Below, in pieces: positions 19,569 to 34,287 of a stretch of 34,287 nt of DNA (the stretch's first letter is position 1; every line of letters starts with the position of its first letter). The notes beneath the pieces are model-generated. The model ran no database searches. It had not been told where the DNA came from and saw only the letters and a program-made list of their open reading frames with translations. The position numbers were made by a program, and so were the translations under genes. Origin of the DNA: Methanobrevibacter sp. (lineage in GTDB: Archaea > Methanobacteriota > Methanobacteria > Methanobacteriales > Methanobacteriaceae). The stretch is taken from assembly GCF_017447225.1 (NCBI RefSeq), contig NZ_JAFSNZ010000042.1, positions 1-34,287 on the forward strand, given 5' to 3'.

Positions 19569-21077
19569 TTAATTTTTTCGTGAAAACTTAGCCATATACC
19601 TTTCAAGCTTTTGAGGGTTGCTTAAGGTTTCACCAATGCCTGATGTCAGAACAATTCCAAAGGCTTCAATGAGATTATCATCATCAAGCCTAGAATCGAT
19701 TTCAAGGTCTAACTGCTCATAGTTCGGTGCCATATTCAGTGAAAGGAACTCATCCTTGATATCTTCCCTTAAGTCCTCGTCGATGAACTTCTCAAAAATA
19801 TCATTGATGTCATAGGCAAGGGTATTAGCTATGAGCAGGCAATAGTCAATATCCTCTTTTGAATATAAGTGTGATATCTCATCAAGCTTGTAGTTGAATG
19901 ATGAGTAGTCCTGAAAACCGAAAAGGGCAAATCTTCCCTCGACAGTATGGGCGCAGAACTCATCCATAAGATAGTTCAAATCATCCTCCAGAAGCATCTT
20001 TATATAACTTGAAATGAGCGGAGTGTCATCTGTGTCAAGGATTTTCATAAGGATTTCCTTTAAGATTTTCTCGACAATGAAATGTGTCAGCTCATGGATG
20101 ATTGAGGTGATGATAAGAGGACTCGCCAGCCGGTCATCAATCTTGATTTTGTTGAATGCATATGATCCAAGAAGCCTTCCCCTTGATTTATATGTGATAT
20201 CTGCAAATGACTTTGCGAAAAGCAGAACCTTATCCTTTGTCTTTATCTGGTTTAGATTTATTGAATTAATCTTAATCGCATTGATTAAAAGCAGCTGGCT
20301 TGACTGAGTGATGTTATCAAGGATATTTTTATAATCTGTGATTGTGATATCGCATCTTATGATTTTTTCAATGTTTTCATCCGTGAAAAGCTCCTCTGCG
20401 GAATTGATGCTGTTTTCATGAGTGTTTTCTATTGGATATGAAAATTCAATGTCTTTAACATTAAATGATGATTCAATGCCCCTGCTGTAAAATGCCCGTT
20501 CATGACGATATTCCATGTCCATTAAAGGCCTTTGGGCAAAAATTACGGCTTCACCCTTTTGAATTTTAATGAAACGTGTGAATTCTTTTTGAAGTCTGGC
20601 ATATATTGAAACCAGAAAGTCCAAATCGGTTGTGAGTTTAGTGTCATCTAATTCGTCATAGCTATATTTTTTATCAATTATTGAATATGAATCATCATAA
20701 TAATTAAGCGTAAAATCATTTAAATCAATGGTCTTTAGAATACTTATCAGTTCCAATTCGAATGATGTATACTCAGAGTAAATTTCAAGCCTTGGAACAA
20801 GAGAAAGGTGAACTTCACAATTTTCACAGTCAAAGCTGTACTCAATTTGAAGTGATTCCTGGGAGGAATCAAAGGAATCATGAGTTATGCTGATCCAGGG
20901 ATTTAAAGCCCAATTATTTTTACCGCAGGATGCCTTAACGGAAAAATCCTTTAAACTCGGGAATTCTTTTGGCGTATTTTTGCTGAATTTCTGGGCAAAA
21001 TCGCTTCTTTTGAATTCTTTTGTCCTTTCTAAAGGATAAGTGTCTAAAATCTCTCTAAAGTAATTGGCCAACGTCAT
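19569..21077 (-). CDS. MrcB-N-like domain fused to an HExxH metallopeptidase-like domain
   Basis: A 502-aa protein with an unusual architecture. Residues 1 to about 100 fit the N-terminal domain of MrcB-type restriction proteins: 'LANYFREILDTYP', then a GKNNWALNPWISI block corresponding to the family's GkGNWAxxPWIaI, then 'YSFDCENCEVHLSL'. About 150-240 is unassigned. About 320-400 is a zinc-peptidase-like helix pair: IIHELTHFIVEKIL (HExxH at about 328-332) and some 40 residues later YLMDEFCAHTVEGRF, whose Glu could be the third ligand. No signal peptide or membrane segment, so cytoplasmic. Start at ATG 21075-21077 (GAGTGA upstream) rather than GTG 21086. It follows the small TPR ORF by five bases. 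Possibly a nucleic-acid-sensing protease, by analogy with ImmA/IrrE-type proteins; unproven. Confidence 0.6.
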   Translation of the reverse strand: MTLANYFREILDTYPLERTKEFKRSDFAQKFSKNTPKEFPSLKDFSVKASCGKNNWALNPWISITHDSFDSSQESLQIEYSFDCENCEVHLSLVPRLEIYSEYTSFELELISILKTIDLNDFTLNYYDDSYSIIDKKYSYDELDDTKLTTDLDFLVSIYARLQKEFTRFIKIQKGEAVIFAQRPLMDMEYRHERAFYSRGIESSFNVKDIEFSYPIENTHENSINSAEELFTDENIEKIIRCDITITDYKNILDNITQSSQLLLINAIKINSINLNQIKTKDKVLLFAKSFADITYKSRGRLLGSYAFNKIKIDDRLASPLIITSIIHELTHFIVEKILKEILMKILDTDDTPLISSYIKMLLEDDLNYLMDEFCAHTVEGRFALFGFQDYSSFNYKLDEISHLYSKEDIDYCLLIANTLAYDINDIFEKFIDEDLREDIKDEFLSLNMAPNYEQLDLEIDSRLDDDNLIEAFGIVLTSGIGETLSNPQKLERYMAKFSRKN

Positions 21078-21082
21078 TAAAA

Positions 21083-21259
21083 TCACTCACTTTCCAATGC
21101 ATCTAAGCATAACTGGATATTATTTTTGATTGTCGGATCATCGGGAACTAAATTATGTGCTTGGCTAAAGCATTCCAGTGCTTCCTTGAAGTTTCCAATT
21201 TGGGAAAGCTCAACTCCACGGTTGTTTAAATTAATTGCTTCTTGTTCAATCTGTGCCAT
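21083..21259 (-). CDS. Small TPR-like protein, unusual or internal start
   Basis: A 58-aa ORF from ATG 21257-21259: a single TPR-like helix pair, 'EAINLNNRGVELSQIGNFKEALECFSQAHNLVPDDP' in pattern (A, G, A, F, A, P at the TPR positions), ending ALESE. AGGA lies about nine bases before the ATG. The frame stays open further upstream to a hydrophobic IISFLPFIAAGIAG, right behind GAGGTG and a TATA-like box (about 21328-21340), but there only ATT/ATC codons could start. A 72-aa form from ATT 21299-21301 with a hydrophobic N-terminus is therefore possible. The stop is five bases before the metallopeptidase ATG, which suggests coupling. Confidence 0.6.
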   Translation of the reverse strand: MAQIEQEAINLNNRGVELSQIGNFKEALECFSQAHNLVPDDPTIKNNIQLCLDALESE

Positions 21260-23257: not shown

Positions 23258-24475
23258 TTACCTAAACATTTTATCTAGTTTTTTTGGTTTAATCTCATAT
23301 TTTTCATTAATAACTTCATTTATTTTATCAAGTTTTTCTATTCTTTCAAGTTTTTCTTGTTTTTCCATTAGTTTCTTTCTTTCATCATATTTTATTGCTA
23401 ATTCTTTATCTTTCATTTCAGTTTTGTTAAACAAATCTTGATTTAAAATAATCCATGGTAAATTCAAGTTCAAAACTTCTTTTTTTAATAGAGGGATTGA
23501 TCTTCTTTTAATGGTAAAATTATTTTCAGAGCCTTTGGAATAATTATATTCCCATTCATTATTTAATGATACCCTAAATAATCCAGTTTGAGTAATCTTT
23601 TTTTGAATATCAATTTCCTGGATTAATTTTTTAGTTAATTCTTTATCTATCTTCAATGATTTTTTATATAATTGATTATCAATAATCTTCCAAATCAAAT
23701 TATTATCTTTAATTGTTTCTTCCAAATCTGATAATGATGATGAATATATCCATGAATCATCTTCAAAATTTTTATATCTCCAATTATTACCTGTTTCATT
23801 TATTATTGGTGTTACAAAAAGTATGCCTGTACCTTTGTTTTGAATTTCATATTTCTCAATTATTAAATTTAATTTATGGGATTTTAAAATTGATTCATAA
23901 TTATCTTTTAAAAACTTGTAAAAACGAGGTAAAGAAAATGAAAGTATTAATTCACATTCTTTATGTTTAAACTCTTGGGAAACTTTTTTATCAGTGATAA
24001 TCCATTCTAAATTTTGATTTAAAACAGTATCTTCCAATTTCCATAAATATTTATGAGAAATTTTTTTATTTCCATCATCATAAATCCATACATTACCCAA
24101 TTTATCAAATTTAACATTTTTAAAACCAGTATTGTAAACAAAATCTGTTTTAGGAGCACTGACTATTCGAGTTCTTAATATTCTTCTATGTGAATTATTT
24201 TTTTGTAAGGGAGGATTATTTTTAATTTTCTTGGGAATAATGTTTTTCTCATGAATAATAATTTCATCAAATTTAACTGATTCAGGTTTATCTATCTTGC
24301 TTGATTTATCTGCAAGGTCTTTATCAGTAATTTTCCATTCATACCCTAAAATAGTAATTTTACTTTTCAAATCTTTTAAAGATCTGCCAGTAATTTTTCT
24401 ATCATCTTCTAAATGATACTCCCATTTAAGGAAGGCTGATTCATTATAAATTACATTTTTAATACCTGTATCCAT
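23258..24475 (-). CDS. Protein of four copies of an unnamed W-rich domain
   Basis: A 405-aa basic protein, very AT-rich in codon use. Four imperfect repeats of about 60-75 residues begin near residues 3, 112, 208 and 284 with 'TGIKNV', 'TGFKNV', 'TGILFV' and 'TGLFRV'. Each continues to a 'W-x-Y' (or W-I-Y) strand pair, a charged turn, a helix 'L..LK..(I/V)', and 'L-x-W-x-I-x-(D/N)..L'. The last 50 residues are a charged coiled coil (EKQEKLERIEKLDKINEVI). The same domain occurs once at 18331-18567. I suspect a DNA- or protein-binding module, but no known family is certain. Start at ATG 24473-24475 with GGAGGT seven bases upstream; it follows the 895-aa gene by 15 bp, so they form one operon. 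Confidence 0.65.
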   Translation of the reverse strand: MDTGIKNVIYNESAFLKWEYHLEDDRKITGRSLKDLKSKITILGYEWKITDKDLADKSSKIDKPESVKFDEIIIHEKNIIPKKIKNNPPLQKNNSHRRILRTRIVSAPKTDFVYNTGFKNVKFDKLGNVWIYDDGNKKISHKYLWKLEDTVLNQNLEWIITDKKVSQEFKHKECELILSFSLPRFYKFLKDNYESILKSHKLNLIIEKYEIQNKGTGILFVTPIINETGNNWRYKNFEDDSWIYSSSLSDLEETIKDNNLIWKIIDNQLYKKSLKIDKELTKKLIQEIDIQKKITQTGLFRVSLNNEWEYNYSKGSENNFTIKRRSIPLLKKEVLNLNLPWIILNQDLFNKTEMKDKELAIKYDERKKLMEKQEKLERIEKLDKINEVINEKYEIKPKKLDKMFR

Positions 24476-24490
24476 AATAAATACCTCCAA

Positions 24491-27178
24491 TTAATCTTTT
24501 TTATGTCCCATCATTTCTTTTTTGAGCTTCTCGATTTCCTTTCCATCCTTTTTCAAAATGGTTGAAGTTTTTGAAGGATTTTTCATATTGAAGAAGAAAT
24601 CCGTTTTATCATCACCCTTTTGCATAGCTTCATATAAATCTGAATTTTTATCATCAGACAGTAAAGTATTGTCATCATTTTCATTTGCATATAATTTATC
24701 ACCATGAGCGTCTAAAACTGACATTCCTTCATTATCATTATCTTTATCCGTGAGATCTATTACAATATTTTCCTGAGTAATCAGTCCGTCGTCCTGCCAT
24801 ACTTTAAGGTCATCTTCGGTGAAATTAATGTCGAATATTCTTAAAATCTTTTCTATGGACTGATTTTTTCTTAACAGTTTGTTTACCCATAATATATTAG
24901 GCTCCATATAGTGTGAGTAGAAAAATTCTGAAAATTCCCTGAATTTCTCATCACTTTTGCCTTTATAGTACCAGTCGTATACATCATCAAATGTTACACC
25001 GGCACGTTTTGCAGCAACATCCGTTTTGCTGTCATTTCGGATTTCTCTTTTGACTATTTCCATCCTTTCATGCAATAATATTTCATCGATTCTTTCTTTT
25101 AACTGAAGATATTCATCATCGGATAAATTTGATCTTTTAAGTGAAGTGTCATGACCTCTTCCGCTGAGGATTTCTTCAACATACTTGTCCTTTTTAAACT
25201 CCATGTACTCGTCATGGAAATCTGCGTTACTTTCATAGCATAGATTGAGCTCGTCTTTTGTTAAGTCAATGCTGTCAAGAGCCTTGTTGAAGGGCTTTCT
25301 TTTAATCTCCTCCATGAACCTTGAAAGCTGTTCCGGAACAACTTCGCCTTCATAGTATTGATAAAGCTCACAGTATACTTTTGAGCCTCTTTTTCCAAGA
25401 AAAAGGAAAGTGTTTATCTCATGGACTGACACCTCAACGCTATCTGAAATCTGTTTTTTGGTCATGCCTTTTTTAAATCCTTTTAAAATAAGTTCAGCAA
25501 TTACCTTTACGTTATCGTCCTTGAATTTATCAAAGAGTTTGTTTTTCCTCTTAAGCCATTTGTCGACGATTGCTTCATCCATATAAATTGCTTTGCAGGC
25601 TTCGGATTTTGTTTTTCCGGTTTTTCTCTCACTTAAATATTTATCCATCAGAATCCGGTTTGATTTTATGTAGAAATCCGAATCGATTTTTGCTTCATCA
25701 AACCATCTGTAAAAGTCATCAACGGTGATTTTTGTGAGTTTGCATGAATTTTTCAAGTCATTGTTTGTAAGGTAGCTTAAAAGCTGTTCCTTTCTTTTTT
25801 TGATGATTTTTTCATATTCCTGGCCGAATTCGTTTTTCTTGAATTTTGAGTATTTGACCAAATCGTCATATTCCTTTCTGGTGATTCCGGCCTCTTTTAT
25901 GACCTGCTCTTTTGAATAGTTTTTGCTTAAAAGATTTAAAATCAGATCCTTTTTGATTTGGGAGAGCTCCTCTTCAAAATCCGGATCGAATTTAGGGAAA
26001 AACTCAAGCATCTCATCTGAAATGTTCAGTTTTCTTTTGATTTCTGAGTTTTTGATACCCTGCCTTTTAAGGGAGAGATAATCATCAATGAGAAGCCTGT
26101 TGAATATCTCAAATGATTCGTTGAAATCATTTTTCCGGTACCTGTTGAGATTGATCTTATACCATCTTTTCAAGTCCTTTTCGGGGATGGTGGTATATTC
26201 AATGCTTGCCCAGATGTTTTCAGTGGTTAATAAATCCTTTTCGAACTTGCTTATGATTTCATCATTGATTACCTTATAGAACTGATAATAAGGGTCCTGT
26301 CTGAAGCTTCCCTGACGGTATTGCTTTGTATCCTTGATTTCTTTTGGCGTGATTTTATCTTCCCTGAACTTGGTAATCAATTCGCCGATTTTAATGTATG
26401 AATCAATTCTTGACATGTAGGAGTCGATGTTCATATTGTTGAATTCAATGAATCTTCCCTTTACTTTGAACAAGTTACTTTTAACTAGTGAATTGATTAA
26501 CGGAGCAACATAGCCCTCATGGATTCCGTATTCGATTAAATCTTCCTTGGTGAATCTGGCGTCCTTTCCGAAGCTGTTTCTGATGCTTATGAAATTGTTT
26601 GCATTTTCTATATCTCTGTTACATTTTTCACAGAAAATGGAGTAATTTGAATGGTTAGGCTCACCGCACACAACACAGTAGTCATAGCTGAACTCAACGA
26701 TTTCAGTAAAATCCGGAATCTCCATAAGCTCAATTTCATCATCTGTGAAATCCAATTTTAAAGGCCTGTATTCGGGAACACCCCTGTACTGGTCATACTC
26801 ATCGCTGTCACGGTAGAACTTCTTGGCGATGTAAAAGAGCCTTTCGTGAAGCTGCAGGGCAACGACATACTCGTTTTTCTCAATCTCTTCAAAATTGTCA
26901 TGAATATGGCTTCTCATGTTATAGGCTGTTTTGATTTTTTCCTTAAAGCCGTAGGCAATTCCGTCAAGCCTGTAGACCGCATCGATTTGGTCTGAGAAGT
27001 TCTTTCGTGAATTGTATGGGATGTTAACTGAATTTAAGTATTGCTTCAGGATGTGTTCAAGAAAAGTCGTGGCGTCGGCCTTCACCCCGGACGGGGAAAT
27101 GCTGACCTGCTTTTCAATTCTCATTCCCAGCTTCCACAAAGTGGTATCGAAATCCTTTAAAAAATCAAAATTGGACAA
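24491..27178 (-). CDS. Large HEPN/DUF4145-like, zinc-finger, HTH-array protein
   Basis: An 895-aa cytoplasmic protein. About 1-125 is an all-helical domain resembling DUF4145/HEPN-type domains of defence and restriction proteins ('ATTFLEHILKQYL ... YNMRSHIHD', with R89 and H93 in an R-x3-H spacing). C168-C171 and C183-C186 form a zinc finger (CVVCG...CEKC). From about 300 to 800 there are about nine HTH-like units in the style of phage terminase small subunits, such as 'AAKRAGVTFDDVYDWYYKGKS' (722-741) and 'SCKLTKITVDDFYRWFDEAK'. The tail is acidic and disordered. TTG 27176-27178 is the start, with AGGTGA six bases upstream. It is divergent from the DUF1232 gene across 72 bp and is followed by the four-repeat protein. 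I cannot name the family; DNA binding is likely. Confidence 0.55.
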   Translation of the reverse strand: MSNFDFLKDFDTTLWKLGMRIEKQVSISPSGVKADATTFLEHILKQYLNSVNIPYNSRKNFSDQIDAVYRLDGIAYGFKEKIKTAYNMRSHIHDNFEEIEKNEYVVALQLHERLFYIAKKFYRDSDEYDQYRGVPEYRPLKLDFTDDEIELMEIPDFTEIVEFSYDYCVVCGEPNHSNYSIFCEKCNRDIENANNFISIRNSFGKDARFTKEDLIEYGIHEGYVAPLINSLVKSNLFKVKGRFIEFNNMNIDSYMSRIDSYIKIGELITKFREDKITPKEIKDTKQYRQGSFRQDPYYQFYKVINDEIISKFEKDLLTTENIWASIEYTTIPEKDLKRWYKINLNRYRKNDFNESFEIFNRLLIDDYLSLKRQGIKNSEIKRKLNISDEMLEFFPKFDPDFEEELSQIKKDLILNLLSKNYSKEQVIKEAGITRKEYDDLVKYSKFKKNEFGQEYEKIIKKRKEQLLSYLTNNDLKNSCKLTKITVDDFYRWFDEAKIDSDFYIKSNRILMDKYLSERKTGKTKSEACKAIYMDEAIVDKWLKRKNKLFDKFKDDNVKVIAELILKGFKKGMTKKQISDSVEVSVHEINTFLFLGKRGSKVYCELYQYYEGEVVPEQLSRFMEEIKRKPFNKALDSIDLTKDELNLCYESNADFHDEYMEFKKDKYVEEILSGRGHDTSLKRSNLSDDEYLQLKERIDEILLHERMEIVKREIRNDSKTDVAAKRAGVTFDDVYDWYYKGKSDEKFREFSEFFYSHYMEPNILWVNKLLRKNQSIEKILRIFDINFTEDDLKVWQDDGLITQENIVIDLTDKDNDNEGMSVLDAHGDKLYANENDDNTLLSDDKNSDLYEAMQKGDDKTDFFFNMKNPSKTSTILKKDGKEIEKLKKEMMGHKKD

Positions 27179-27250
27179 TTTTATTCACCTGTTATATATA
27201 ATATTAGAACAATATAATATTTAAATATTATAATTTTAATACTATTAAAT
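27179..27250. promoter_or_regulatory. Divergent promoter region
   Basis: 72 bp of almost pure A+T between divergent genes. For the plus-strand gene a TATA-like TTTAAATATTATAA (about 27220-27233) lies about one promoter distance from the ATG at 27251 and there is no ribosome binding site, which fits a leaderless mRNA. For the minus-strand gene, AT-rich TATA-like sequence precedes AGGTGA at about 27186. Confidence 0.5.
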
Positions 27251-27664
27251 ATGAATAAGGAATTTAAGGATTTTTATGACACTCTCACAGAAAATCTGGA
27301 AAATTATAAAGGAGAATACGAATCCTTCATTAACTACGGACCAAATCTGTTTAAACTTTTATGTGATTTATTGAATGCTGAAATTGACTCTTCACTACGA
27401 TTGCCAATATGTGGCGCCATAGCATACTACGTCACACCAGATGATATTATTTCTGAACAGGTCTACGGTCCCTACGGATACATTGATGATATATATTTAG
27501 CCAGCTATGTTTTAAAATTAGTGGCTGACGAGCACGGATACGATTTTTTACAGGAAAATGCAAGCTTTGAAGTGGAATCTATTGTTAATGAATGTGAAAG
27601 CAAATCTTTAGAGATATTAAATAAGGATGAAGTTGAAAGCATTATTGCTTATATTGGATTATAA
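27251..27664 (+). CDS. DUF1232 (YkvA-like) protein
   Basis: A 137-aa protein whose middle carries the DUF1232 signature: 'PICGAIAYYVTPDDIISEQV ... GYIDDIYLASYVLKLV', matching the family pattern Y-x-(I/V)-(S/T)-P-x-D-(L/I)-I ... G-(Y/L)-x-D-D. DUF1232 proteins are usually small and often membrane-associated; this one lacks a clear membrane span, and its N- and C-terminal parts are charged helices. Role unknown. Apparently leaderless. The TPR gene starts 30 bp downstream in the same direction, so a two-gene operon is likely. Confidence 0.7.
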   Translation: MNKEFKDFYDTLTENLENYKGEYESFINYGPNLFKLLCDLLNAEIDSSLRLPICGAIAYYVTPDDIISEQVYGPYGYIDDIYLASYVLKLVADEHGYDFLQENASFEVESIVNECESKSLEILNKDEVESIIAYIGL

Positions 27665-30600: not shown

Positions 30601-30951
30601 TATGACTACAATATGGAAGAATATAAGAAATACCTTGATCAAGTATTTGAAGTGTGCTATGAAAAAGATACATTAATTGAAGCATATGAAGAATTAAAAG
30701 AATATTATAAAATTCAAAGACAAACAGAAATTGTAGACTTATTAAATCAGTTTATTGAAAAGTTAAAAGCTAATGAATTTGAAAAACACGACAATTATGA
30801 CTATGAATTAATGTTTGATAAATATGAAATTCAAATGGGATTCAGCAAACAGATAGAAGATATAGTAAAAGATACAGATATGGACTGTTATGAAAAAATC
30901 AGGAAAGTAAATGTAATTTTCGATGATAAATTATCTACTATCTTCAAATAA
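27694..30951 (+). CDS. Giant TPR protein built from four related modules
   Basis: A 1085-aa protein, very AT-rich, no signal peptide. TPR-like helix pairs are clear at about 70-105, 300-335, 697-730, 735-765 and near 930-1000, each ending in 'A-L-x-x-N-P' or similar. Around them a larger module of about 90-130 residues recurs four times: 'fL...P...........E.ELY.......(I/L).......Y..L.....C......y.eA.....KAL.LNP' (starts near 28, 249, 645 and 865). A different domain at about 480-570 ('ELLGSYVLIKDFEDRNIVTY ... VFFVFLTTAE') is not TPR. Start at ATG 27694 (AAGTGAT upstream) rather than GTG 27685. Its last 21 bp overlap the convergent SWIM gene. Probably a scaffold or sensor; function unknown. 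Confidence 0.65.
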   Translation: MYDKSLNSLVKESFELLTSKKFNEVISNITSFLKDNSANIDSERISFINLVEKELYEKYYGPIDCEISPISHLYLVLAIAYSHVLDFDEAQKNLKIAKKINPISPEIQLALCNCYKRYDNFDKIKEILYNIFKFNYKSQHFYETYLVLSIYQYEKGDFLLYHHLTNFVKRDNNHDITEDIHYINDKDVPITFDNEMIAILKDNDYELYKKAINYNAYIKSFFYGVDLERITENIKILIANNQYEDAVKKLETFFNDNPLDGSENYFMFHNHIEMELYYESSDFDENHILFSKEKNYPYLYYLYGFCHESLNNYKEAITFYKKALEFNPYSFNIHMRIINIYLEHNFTVDYKLLVFLESISYDIKDLLNVYRAFQMNLELENKEDESDIILAFTADVTFESFDRINLKAFDIFKNYNFQVSFNKKIISIIDDAKNQLDNDSDDYKYYENLEDNICEFNLKMDELKGNDVEIKSKYKLIKEYSEEELLGSYVLIKDFEDRNIVTYCYRQVTGSVFFVFLTTAEIDDEIKINPRGEIFNDIIYPKEVFDDSAAIILDELTQFNDYLDIDNDYSRFIKFNISGDDEKDKKFLINELLNIRDDTFGLKRDSIGVELRKLININEIMSKDIPSNELIEKVNECEDYVKSLELINEFLEKYPPLYFNSPVKSYYYFNDNEHELYAKYNNSSELIELIPQNHNYCEIFNLKAECLIKLDLYEDAKECILNSLSLNPMNVKSHIILSDLNVREKNIDLAISLLKEALLYNTDIVIHCEIYNRLSELTNDEKLSKDLKSLIGLMNQYDENIILEIKDNIINNNILLGFNKELIENDEFYLGNNVSKILQEINPIMEKYPLYAAKKLEKYLREISNSNEYGFEIPFKKIDAPLLYSSQETSADIFYNFRNEIEQKVFNTLYTSQNKKIIPPQDDYAQLLSNYGYCLISFERGKSRAILKEALKLNPVNAQTLLNMARLSKYDYNMEEYKKYLDQVFEVCYEKDTLIEAYEELKEYYKIQRQTEIVDLLNQFIEKLKANEFEKHDNYDYELMFDKYEIQMGFSKQIEDIVKDTDMDCYEKIRKVNVIFDDKLSTIFK

Positions 30952-31689
30952 CTTTTCAACATCACCTATTCTAGAGTAAATATCAGTAAACCTCTCCAAA
31001 ATATCAAGATTATGATTATTCAGAATAATGTTGGCCAGAAACTCCAAAGTTTTATTTTCCTGACCTGAATTGAATAATTCCATCATAATATCATCCAATT
31101 TGTATAAAATATTGTCAAAAGCATTCCAGTTATGCTCATCATATAACTCTTCAAGATAGGCGACAAGCAAATCACATAAAGTGAAAACCAAATTATACTG
31201 TTCGTGTTCAATTAATGAATCCAAATCCTCATCAATGAATTTTATTACATTGACTGAATTGGAAAAGGACTTTTTAAGCTTATTGATATAAAAGTCATCA
31301 TCAATTTTAGAATCTGTGAACACCTTAAATCTGTTGAAGAGATTATCATCATTTAGAAATTCCTGAAGCACGAATTTTCTTAAATCCTCTTCACTAACGC
31401 TATTGAGGATTTTTTCCACATCATGATTATGATTGAAAAGCTCGGGATGATTATCTGCGTAATATAAGGTTGTAGCCAAATGCTTGCAGTTGCCTTCATA
31501 TGGACAGCTGCAATACATTGAGGCTATCTGATTATCCTTAAATGTAATTCGCAGATTATAAAAATCATAACCCCTCACATTGGCATCAATATGGTCATTG
31601 GTTGCGTTTATTATTTCAACCGCATCCAATTCGTAATAGTTTTGACCTCGCTCAAGAATCTGTTGTGAGAAATGTTTCTTCCAGTTCAT
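30931..31689 (-). CDS. SWIM zinc-finger protein
   Basis: A 252-aa cytoplasmic protein. The N-terminal 75 residues fit the SWIM domain: a 'F..QILERGQNYYE...V' start, beta strands ('YNLRITFKDNQIASMYC') and the metal site C60-x-C62-x5-C68-x-H70 (CSCPYEGNCKH). SWIM fingers bind DNA or proteins and often sit next to helicases or transposases. The rest (about 90-252) is helical and acidic, without recognised motifs. Its ATG overlaps the stop of the SAP-domain gene by 4 bp (ATGA), so the two are translationally coupled; its 3' end overlaps the TPR gene. Confidence 0.8.
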   Translation of the reverse strand: MNWKKHFSQQILERGQNYYELDAVEIINATNDHIDANVRGYDFYNLRITFKDNQIASMYCSCPYEGNCKHLATTLYYADNHPELFNHNHDVEKILNSVSEEDLRKFVLQEFLNDDNLFNRFKVFTDSKIDDDFYINKLKKSFSNSVNVIKFIDEDLDSLIEHEQYNLVFTLCDLLVAYLEELYDEHNWNAFDNILYKLDDIMMELFNSGQENKTLEFLANIILNNHNLDILERFTDIYSRIGDVEKLFEDSR

Positions 31690-32786
31690 ACTATCAAAGT
31701 AATTTTATCATTTAACTCATCAATATCCTCATTTAAAGCCTGATTAAGATAATTATAAGAATCTTCTTTTGATGTTAATTTTTTATCAAATTTAATATCA
31801 TCCCAGGCATCATTGAAAATTGCTTTTAAATCATCAATTTCAGCCAAAGCAGATAATGCATCGATATTGTTAATGTTTGAATGATGAATCGGAATATAAT
31901 CCTTTAATTCTTCATTATCCAAAAATACTGGATTTAATTTTAAAATGAAAACTTTCAGTTCATTAAATAAAGCATTTTCATAATCTTCCTCATTAATATT
32001 AATTAATGCCAAAGATGAAAAGGCATCATGCAAACGGTTGAAATCCTCCTCATCATATCCTTTTTTAATGTTTTCATCAAGATAGTTCAGTGAGTTTTCA
32101 AGCACACTACCAGTATCATACTCAGTCATGTAATATTCATAATCATCAAAATCAAAATAAGCCAATAGGGCATTGTAAAATGCAACCCAATTAACACCCA
32201 TAAATCTGTGAATACCATAATCGGTAACCACATAGCTATTTTCACTTTCATAATTGACTAATCTGTTAACCAATGCATTTTTATTCCCGTCAGTGCTTAA
32301 AGATCGAAGAGCAAGTTCATCCTTAAGTTCATTTAAATCATACTTTTTAAATGTTTTCCTTAATTTCCTGTTATTCGAACCGCCTTTTTCAACCAATCCG
32401 TTTGAAATTAGAAAATCCTTAGCCATGTCTTTAGGCATATTCAAATCAAGCATATCCAATACTAAATCCAAATTGGAAGTAACCTGTAAACCCAGAATAA
32501 CATTAAAAATTACAAGAGAATAAGATCTGACATGAATATCCATCAAATCAAGAGAATGCAAATGCTTCTCATAATCAGCCAAATCAATAATTGAACGGGA
32601 ATAAGTATAGTTTTTAACATATGAATAATCATCATCCAAATCTAATACTTCCCTATCTTCAATATCAGCAATTTCTTCAATTGAATCCAATTCCAGCATA
32701 TGTTCTTCATTCAATTTATTGAATAAATCAATGTCATTATTATTATAAACTTCTACAAGCTGATTAAATACTTCTTCATTATCCAT
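31686..32786 (-). CDS. SAP-domain protein
   Basis: A 366-aa acidic, mostly helical protein. Residues about 149-178 (YDLNELKDELALRSL then GNKNALVNRLVNYE) match the SAP motif, a two-helix DNA-binding unit with conserved 'L..lL..r.l...G.K..Lv.Rl'. No enzyme motif is visible; Tyr- and Asp-rich regions surround the motif. GAGGTG is seven bases before the ATG. It starts 37 bp after brxL and overlaps the SWIM gene by 4 bp, so brxL, SAP and SWIM genes look like one operon. By position it could be a DNA-targeting partner of BrxL; that is inference. Confidence 0.7.
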   Translation of the reverse strand: MDNEEVFNQLVEVYNNNDIDLFNKLNEEHMLELDSIEEIADIEDREVLDLDDDYSYVKNYTYSRSIIDLADYEKHLHSLDLMDIHVRSYSLVIFNVILGLQVTSNLDLVLDMLDLNMPKDMAKDFLISNGLVEKGGSNNRKLRKTFKKYDLNELKDELALRSLSTDGNKNALVNRLVNYESENSYVVTDYGIHRFMGVNWVAFYNALLAYFDFDDYEYYMTEYDTGSVLENSLNYLDENIKKGYDEEDFNRLHDAFSSLALININEEDYENALFNELKVFILKLNPVFLDNEELKDYIPIHHSNINNIDALSALAEIDDLKAIFNDAWDDIKFDKKLTSKEDSYNYLNQALNEDIDELNDKITLIV

Positions 32787-32823
32787 AATTACACCTCATT
32801 TAAAATTTTTTAAGATTTTTTAG

Positions 32824-34287
32824 TTATTCTACACCCAATGCTTTCATAACTGCTTCTTCAGGAGTATTATAAGGAATTGTCGTGAATTTAGAGAATAATT
32901 CTGGTGGCACTAATGCAATATCGGCATATGAACTCATTGGAATTAATACTTTTTTAGCACCGCTGTCAAGACAAACTTGAAGAGCATCAGCAAGATTTGG
33001 AACTTTTTCAATGGTTCCTCCCAAAGAGAAGTTACCTAATATAGCTGTGGACGGTATAATTTGGCGATTTATTGCAACACTACATAATGCTACAAATGTC
33101 GCTAAAGTTAATTGATTTGTCATGCCAACACCATGTAAATCTTTAACCTGCATTACATAATCCTTATCTTTGTATGAAATCTGTCCGCTGACTGAACTTC
33201 CATTTGACTTAAAGTATTCATACGCTATCTTTACAGATTCAGTAACATCTTTTTTAGAACCAATTCCATTTGGTGTGAACTTACCATTACCAGCCATCAT
33301 CTTAGTTTCAAACTTGTAAACACCATACTTTCCATTTTCAGACGTTCCAACAGAGTATAAATGTCCTGGTTTTAAATCTCCTTCTGGAATTAATGTTGAA
33401 CTGGCCTGTTCTGATACACCAACATAGTTTTCAATATTTTCATCCATATCAATATATGAGAAGTTTACATCGTAAAATTCCATTCCACCAATCTTTTTGA
33501 GTTGTTCTTTTACTCTTCTTCTAGATTCTAATGCAAGTTCCAAGATTTCACGAACATCTTCCTTGTCAAATTCTCCATCAGGATATACTAGTTTTACAAG
33601 ACCTGACACCATTCTATTAACGGCTATTGTGTCTCTTTGATTTAAGTCATGACCTAATTTGAAGTAGTCATGATATGCATCGGAAAATGATCTTTTTCTC
33701 ATCTCACGGAAGAACTCTGATAAATAATCTGTTATGAATCCGAAGTCGTCTGTGAAAAATTCCGGTCGGTATTTTGGTATTTCCCAACCTGGAATATAAC
33801 AGTGCATCCTATCAAAGAATGCTGTGTCTGTTCCCATTTCTGGAGGGAATGGATCAAATAAGCTGGATGTTTTTAATAATGATTCAACACTTTGGTTGAT
33901 ATTTCCAACAAATACCATGGATGCATTTGCATTTTTTGCCTCTTTTCCTCTTGAAAATGAACCTGATGCCATGAAATCTTTCATTATAGCGACACCGTCC
34001 TGGTCCTTAAATTTTATTCCAGCAACTTCATCAAAGGCAACGCAGTCCCACATTCCAACAAGACCAATTTGACGGGTATTCATATTATAAAATAGGTTAG
34101 CAACAGTGGTTTGACCTCCTGAGACTAAAATAGAATTCGGTGAAATTTCCTTATAAATATGTGATTTACCGGTTCCTCTAGGACCTAATTCACATAAATT
34201 AAAGTTATTTTCAACCAGTGGAATAAGTCTTGCAAGCAATAACCATCTTACACGTTCATCAAACTGTGTTGGTTCCATTCCGCAAGA
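32824..34287 (-). CDS. brxL: BrxL-like AAA+ / Lon-related protein, N-terminus outside the window
   Basis: The last 487 residues of a BrxL-type protein, the DNA-binding AAA+ factor of BREX phage-defence systems (formerly 'Lon-like'); the full family length is about 680, so roughly the first third is beyond the right edge. Seen: the hallmark 'RWLLLARLIPLVENNFNLCE', Walker A GPRGTGKSH, 'SGGQTTVANLFYNM', Walker B CVAFDEVAG, 'FVGNINQSV', then a Lon-type C-terminal domain ('TNQLTLATFVALCS ... AILGNFSLGGTIEKVPNLADAL ... GAKKVLIPMSS'). The Ser-Lys pair of true Lon proteases is not recognisable (no G-P-S-A-G, and Ala or Asp where Lys is expected), consistent with a non-proteolytic role. An in-frame ATG at 34276-34278 is internal, since the SCG codons before it continue the family sequence. 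Confidence 0.9.
   Translation of the reverse strand, partial: SCGMEPTQFDERVRWLLLARLIPLVENNFNLCELGPRGTGKSHIYKEISPNSILVSGGQTTVANLFYNMNTRQIGLVGMWDCVAFDEVAGIKFKDQDGVAIMKDFMASGSFSRGKEAKNANASMVFVGNINQSVESLLKTSSLFDPFPPEMGTDTAFFDRMHCYIPGWEIPKYRPEFFTDDFGFITDYLSEFFREMRKRSFSDAYHDYFKLGHDLNQRDTIAVNRMVSGLVKLVYPDGEFDKEDVREILELALESRRRVKEQLKKIGGMEFYDVNFSYIDMDENIENYVGVSEQASSTLIPEGDLKPGHLYSVGTSENGKYGVYKFETKMMAGNGKFTPNGIGSKKDVTESVKIAYEYFKSNGSSVSGQISYKDKDYVMQVKDLHGVGMTNQLTLATFVALCSVAINRQIIPSTAILGNFSLGGTIEKVPNLADALQVCLDSGAKKVLIPMSSYADIALVPPELFSKFTTIPYNTPEEAVMKALGVE

Follow-up and report, generated by a model that had tools for sequence, protein, structure and literature searches.

What might a methanogenic archaeon use a protein for in which a HEPN-like head is followed by a long chain of helix-turn-helix (HTH) units? 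The question is raised by one ORF in the window analysed here, the whole of contig G000:C31 (34,287 bp) from a Methanobacteriaceae genome. Little is known of how the dominant gut and rumen methanogens defend themselves against viruses, and the gene is probably a member of a hitherto undescribed family of antiviral defence genes. A literature search found no description of this family, here termed HEPN-HTH, and none of the known anti-phage system models of PADLOC 2.0 matches the 895-aa protein at E 0.01. The gene and its parts are the following.

24491-27178, minus strand: HEPN-HTH gene, 895 aa, consisting of a HEPN/DUF4145-like head, a zinc site, a winged helix, 11 trihelical HTH units and a disordered acidic tail (ORF list, AlphaFold2 [AF2], relatives, alignment).
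26804-27178, minus strand: HEPN/DUF4145-like head, residues 1-125 (alignment, Pfam, AF2, Foldseek).
26900-26914, minus strand: R89-S-H-I-H93, HEPN R..H motif, placed where its helix ends (both residues invariant in 32/32).
26609-26683, minus strand: four-Cys zinc site (C168, C171, C183, C186), residues 166-190 (Cys invariant in the alignment).
26429-26629, minus strand: winged-helix domain, residues 184-250 (AF2, Foldseek, module matches in giant relatives).
24788-26428, minus strand: array of 11 trihelical HTH units, residues 251-797 (AF2, unit-unit hhalign).
24494-24781, minus strand: disordered acidic tail, residues 800-895 (pLDDT 30-40 over 803-878; pI 4.7).

The ORF, called exactly in the preliminary description, starts at a TTG with an AGGTGA ribosome-binding site upstream. 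It is a real, maintained gene, as is indicated by omega against the 75%-identical relative of genome G039: 0.03 in the head, 0.08 in the zinc/winged-helix part, 0.11 in the array, 0.18 in the tail and 0.11 overall, at dS values (1.1-2.2) near saturation. Change is slowest in the head, which is 94% identical to that relative, and faster in the array (73%). Relatives with 25-75% identity are found in 31 of the 139 genomes of the same family, all but one of these genomes being from the same genus. The named ones are all Methanobrevibacter, and because M. smithii PS is among them the family is present in a cultivated strain. When 152 genomes of the phylum were searched by profile, no further full-length relatives turned up outside the groups already found.

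The AF2 model of the 895-aa protein, made with 30 relatives as input (mean pLDDT 82), contains both a HEPN fold and repeated HTH units. The HEPN/DUF4145-like head proposed in the preliminary description is confirmed by five predicted helices (12-25, 29-50, 61-70, 76-91, 101-123), by Foldseek matches to solved HEPN domains (2hsb, probability 0.99; sacsin 3o10, 0.91; MntA-HepT 6m6u, 0.57), and by Pfam DUF4145 matches in 4 of 30 relatives (best 1.3e-4), the 895-aa protein itself giving none. The Foldseek E-values are 0.4 and above, with none <0.001 and a best HEPN value of 0.69, because the query is long and repetitive. The HEPN-HTH family model also matches the N-terminal domain of DptF (5e-9 in L106, 3e-7 in L112), and that of L106 scores above the DUF4145 cut-off. 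HEPN is included among the N-terminal domains of DndF (PMC10853773). The likeness to DptF/DndF of Dnd restriction thus consists of a homologous N-terminal head, together with the occurrence of giant relatives and of a DUF1232-like partner in dnd/dpt loci (see following), whereas the 895-aa protein lacks the DptF ATPase and its genome has no dndD-like match. The archaeal DptF genes with an N-terminal DUF4145/HEPN-like head lie at L106:7308-9797 and L112:11609-14035, with dptG/dptH adjoining.

Within the head, E22, T37, R89 and H93 are invariant and E41 is nearly so. The R and H are kept in all 32 aligned relatives, spaced as R-x3-H in 30 and as R-x4-H in two, the M. smithii member (RNAITH) and L061 (RNSSIH). 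The R-x3-H spacing of R89 and H93 had been read correctly in the preliminary description, where it led to doubt about ribonuclease activity; spacing alone gives no ground for that doubt, given the invariance of the pair and the two R-x4-H members. According to the sections of Anantharaman et al. 2013 (PMC3710099) drawn on here, HEPN RNases have an extra acidic residue in helix 2 in addition to the R..H at the helix end. E41 lies in helix 2, in an E-x3-K with K45 in the 895-aa protein and several relatives, and E41/K45 would fit this acidic residue. The HEPN DUF4145-like families (PF13643) resemble the head, in the same sections, in predicted fold, in the R..H at the helix end, in the acidic residue of helix 2 and in being often fused to a zinc ribbon, an HTH or components of restriction systems. 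They differ in that the R-x3-H of most HEPN-HTH members is shorter than the spacing of characterised HEPN RNases, and a fusion to an 11-unit HTH array is not described in those sections. The loop around residues 91-100 has a mean pLDDT of 59, which makes the R..H geometry uncertain. An RNase-type HEPN effector or regulator is the most likely identity of the head, and RNase activity, as predicted from the conserved residues, is plausible. Homologues of the head are also found as tandem single-domain ORFs of about 123-136 aa that have lost the motif His (L104:9032-10241, L105:6493-7430).

Downstream of the head, the four invariant Cys bear out the zinc finger noted in the preliminary description. 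The winged helix (about 184-246 in the AF2 model) resembles MotA and CRP/FNR-type domains in Foldseek, and the Zn-winged-helix unit occurs as repeated modules in giant relatives. The remainder had been described as about nine terminase-type HTH units; the chain stands, the count becomes eleven plus the winged helix, and the terminase type is abandoned. Among units 2-10, unit-unit hhalign gives probabilities of up to 98%, whereas HEPN segments score near 0 and shuffled controls mostly 0-5 (highest 22); sequence gives little support to units 1 and 11, which rest mainly on the AF2 model. The number of units varies, with an extra ~50 aa in L040/L042 and an extra ~190 aa in the 1,030-aa forms, and such changes between relatives also indicate a repeat array. 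HTH_28 matches 13 of 30 members (best 1.1e-5) and HTH_23 matches 8 of 30. A PDB sequence search with the 895-aa protein gave nothing meaningful, the 'CAP repeat' match 8vd6 (5.8e-4) being five ~5-bit matches to one HTH turn.

Small subunits of phage terminases share with the array a generic trihelical HTH followed by an aromatic/Gly pattern, but the best match to them, PHROG phrog_7067, has E 0.3, the relationship is rejected, and the general families HTH_28/HTH_23 fit better. Pfam recognises no phage genes in the window. A viral origin is not supported, a pattern scan of viral_contigs having found no HEPN-HTH relatives, and the DNA-packaging sensor advanced in the preliminary description is likewise unsupported, since neither a terminase-family match nor relatives in that scan were found.

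The near-invariant positions of the array are mostly hydrophobic or glycine. Its charge gives no support to a DNA-binding array: the pI is 6.7, the recognition helix has a net charge of -2 to -3 in units 5 and 8-11, and recognition helices across the family (motif-matched, n=25) average -2.4 per nine residues. Such neutral-to-acidic helices weaken the case for simple DNA binding; since the local protein background is also acidic (-3.5 per 100 aa), helix charge leaves nucleic-acid binding possible, though weakened. DNA binding by the HTH units, as judged from these charges, is therefore doubtful. The family also poses the question of whether a sensing array can be built from consecutive HTH folds in the way that it can from TPR or LRR repeats.

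A second gene accompanies the first across a common intergenic region.

27251-27664, plus strand: acidic DUF1232-like partner, 137 aa, divergent, 72 bp from the HEPN-HTH gene (Pfam DUF1232 5.1e-7).
27179-27250, unstranded: intergenic promoter region with TATTTAAATATTAT, common to both genes (similar in related loci).

The partner has a pI of 4.1 and is strongly conserved across copies. In 12 of 13 short-form loci, a DUF1232-like gene of 137-149 aa stands head to head with the HEPN-HTH gene, usually at 45-99 bp, and the pairs span a similar TATTTAAATATTAT promoter block; the partner is absent from the long (1,030-aa) and M. smithii forms. One fragment aside, it has 26 copies in the 139 genomes. 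Of these, 12 adjoin HEPN-HTH genes and 9 adjoin larger relatives (matched by profile at L098, L099, L100, L101, L103, L112 and L139, recognised by eye at L136 and L138); 3 lie in dnd loci, which are assigned by full-length dndD-like matches below the model's curated cut-off, and 2, those at L137 (at a contig end) and L140, are assigned to no class. In 21 of the 26 copies the partner adjoins an array-type protein, for which chance is negligible by calculation, but the copies are related by descent. The acidic protein may act as a toxin keeper or as a common subunit of a recognition complex.

The HEPN-HTH family is most likely defence-related, and the reading that we tentatively prefer, with a probability a little short of even, is that of an antiviral module: invasion would be sensed by the wHTH/HTH array, and the HEPN RNase would shut the cell down. 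Its two core genes would be those of the 895-aa protein and the divergent 137-aa DUF1232-like protein. The winged-helix/HTH array would be the sensor or docking part, meeting an infection-specific nucleic acid or nucleoprotein; this contact would activate the HEPN domain, probably as a dimer, and the activated HEPN would cut RNA, so that growth stops. If this is true, a conserved RNase-type head joined to an array, with a partner common to Dnd/BREX-type loci, would be a new handle on methanogen defence.

The larger relatives, of 1,000-1,700 aa, combine HTH units of the HEPN-HTH family with repeated Zn-winged-helix modules. Most have a common, different head, and many carry C-terminal arrays of a small beta-alpha unit. 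The replacement of the HEPN head by another head on the same modules fits interchangeable heads on a common recognition body. The N-termini of L097, L100, L101, L102, L103 and L113 have in common a head of ~165 aa with the pattern W-F/A..FG..IIDF, for which the searches run found no family. Larger relatives adjoin a BrxD-type ATPase (PF10923, E<1e-92) and a Lhr/BrxHI-like helicase, the third gene beside them being of EVE/PUA type by eye; others adjoin dptFGH (L112) or a dndD-like gene (L099). The partner-linked protein at L138:560-3751 has 1,063 aa and two Zn-winged-helix modules, and its C-terminal part looks by eye like TFIIB cyclin repeats.

These relatives bear on a different explanation, in which the protein would have no catalytic role and would serve a restriction-like complex as a recognition or scaffold subunit. 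HEPN would only dimerise or dock, as DUF4145 domains on restriction helicases might, the HTH array would form a solenoid that binds proteins, and the destructive enzyme would be encoded elsewhere, among the BREX, Dnd or CARF neighbours. The neutral array with its acidic recognition helices agrees with this, as do the variation of the adjoining effectors and the larger relatives, which retain the array modules under a different head and are accompanied by an ATPase and a helicase. A docking domain, however, needs no fixed R..H pair, and the pair is invariant here, with E22 and E41 conserved; the standalone L104 and L105 proteins, lacking the His, show that the pair is dispensable for the fold. 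We regard a scaffold as unlikely, though the strongest of the alternatives to the antiviral module.

The antiviral module is further favoured by the neighbourhood, where the window ends in a BREX gene.

32824-34287, minus strand: brxL, cut by the contig end (Pfam BrxL_ATPase 3.2e-127; PADLOC), the only brxL found in the genome.

Three divergent members have brxL within about 6 kb, those of this window, M. smithii and G064. The gene is rare, with 11 copies in the genus, and ~0.1 would be expected near HEPN-HTH members by an estimate made after the fact. Among the neighbours of family genes, PADLOC models match CARF-HEPN proteins in 6 of 113, versus 0 of 113 in a control set drawn from 20 arbitrarily placed regions of five of the same genomes, and TPR-cold-shock proteins also in 6 of 113 versus 0 of 113. 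Each enrichment has p 0.03 and both classes together 0.0004, statistics that ignore kinship; attention was drawn to the brxL and CARF associations in retrospect, and a single inherited locus accounts for several of the CARF cases. In G039 the HEPN-HTH gene is followed by two CARF-HEPN genes on the same strand. Neighbouring genes vary between HEPN-HTH loci. The likeness to BREX lies in brxL near these three members and in the BrxD and BrxHI/Lhr-like helicase found with giant relatives; unlike these, the 895-aa protein is no known BREX component, and the PADLOC BREX models match its neighbours only. The abortive-infection role suggested in the preliminary description, or an antiviral one, is supported by genomic association with brxL, CARF-HEPN, dnd/dpt and BrxD/BrxHI, whether around the gene or around the partner's other copies. 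At 30931-34287, brxL, a SAP-domain protein and a SWIM/PDC-S62-like protein are encoded in one direction, and the defence island may continue past the contig end beyond brxL.

What the antiviral reading chiefly does not account for is the long 1,030-aa subfamily, which lacks the partner and mostly occupies a conserved chromosomal position beside adhesin-like genes. This position would suit a host chromosomal or transcription regulator, for instance of surface genes, with a non-catalytic HEPN fold; zinc-ribbon plus winged-helix modules are characteristic of the transcription proteins of archaea, and the TFIIB-like end of L138 points the same way. Such a regulator is nonetheless rather improbable, given its patchy presence (31/139 genomes), the wealth of defence genes around the partner and the lack of basic recognition helices. 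Least probable by far is a toxin-antitoxin-like pair kept for its own maintenance, with a HEPN toxin and an acidic DUF1232-like antitoxin on a common divergent promoter: the close head-to-head layout, the small acidic partner and the common promoter block would suit it, but no partner accompanies the long form or that of M. smithii, and elsewhere the partner occurs with dnd genes and with proteins without a HEPN head, and is thus not specific to a HEPN toxin.

A wider reading is possible but more speculative than the module itself: an undescribed, one-plan archaeal immune class, made of a DUF1232-like subunit and a long Zn-wH/HTH array protein with a swapped head (HEPN here, a different one in the giants), which would act beside or with BrxD/helicase or DNA phosphorothioation genes. 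The gene next downstream is built from a module of the same giants.

23258-24475, minus strand: co-directional gene, 405 aa (ATG with GGAGGT, 15 nt after the HEPN-HTH stop).

The 405-aa protein consists of about four copies of the small beta-alpha unit of the giants' C-terminal arrays. It entered the first iteration of a unit profile built without it at E<1e-3, a class-wide search with a profile that included the window units finds three units in it, and AF2 gives one unit a small beta-alpha fold. Thus, modules fused in one chain elsewhere stand side by side here. As a conserved partner the gene was rejected as a rule, since it is not seen beside other members. A guess by eye that its units are AP2-like DNA-binding domains was dropped, as Pfam, PDB sequence and Foldseek searches gave nothing. 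Farther along the window, 19569-21086 encodes a 505-aa protein with an MrcB_N domain (1.1e-10). Two divergent members, one of them that of M. smithii, have genes nearby that by eye are DprA-like and phosphoribosyltransferase-like (L045:4869-6867, L061:3021-4869).
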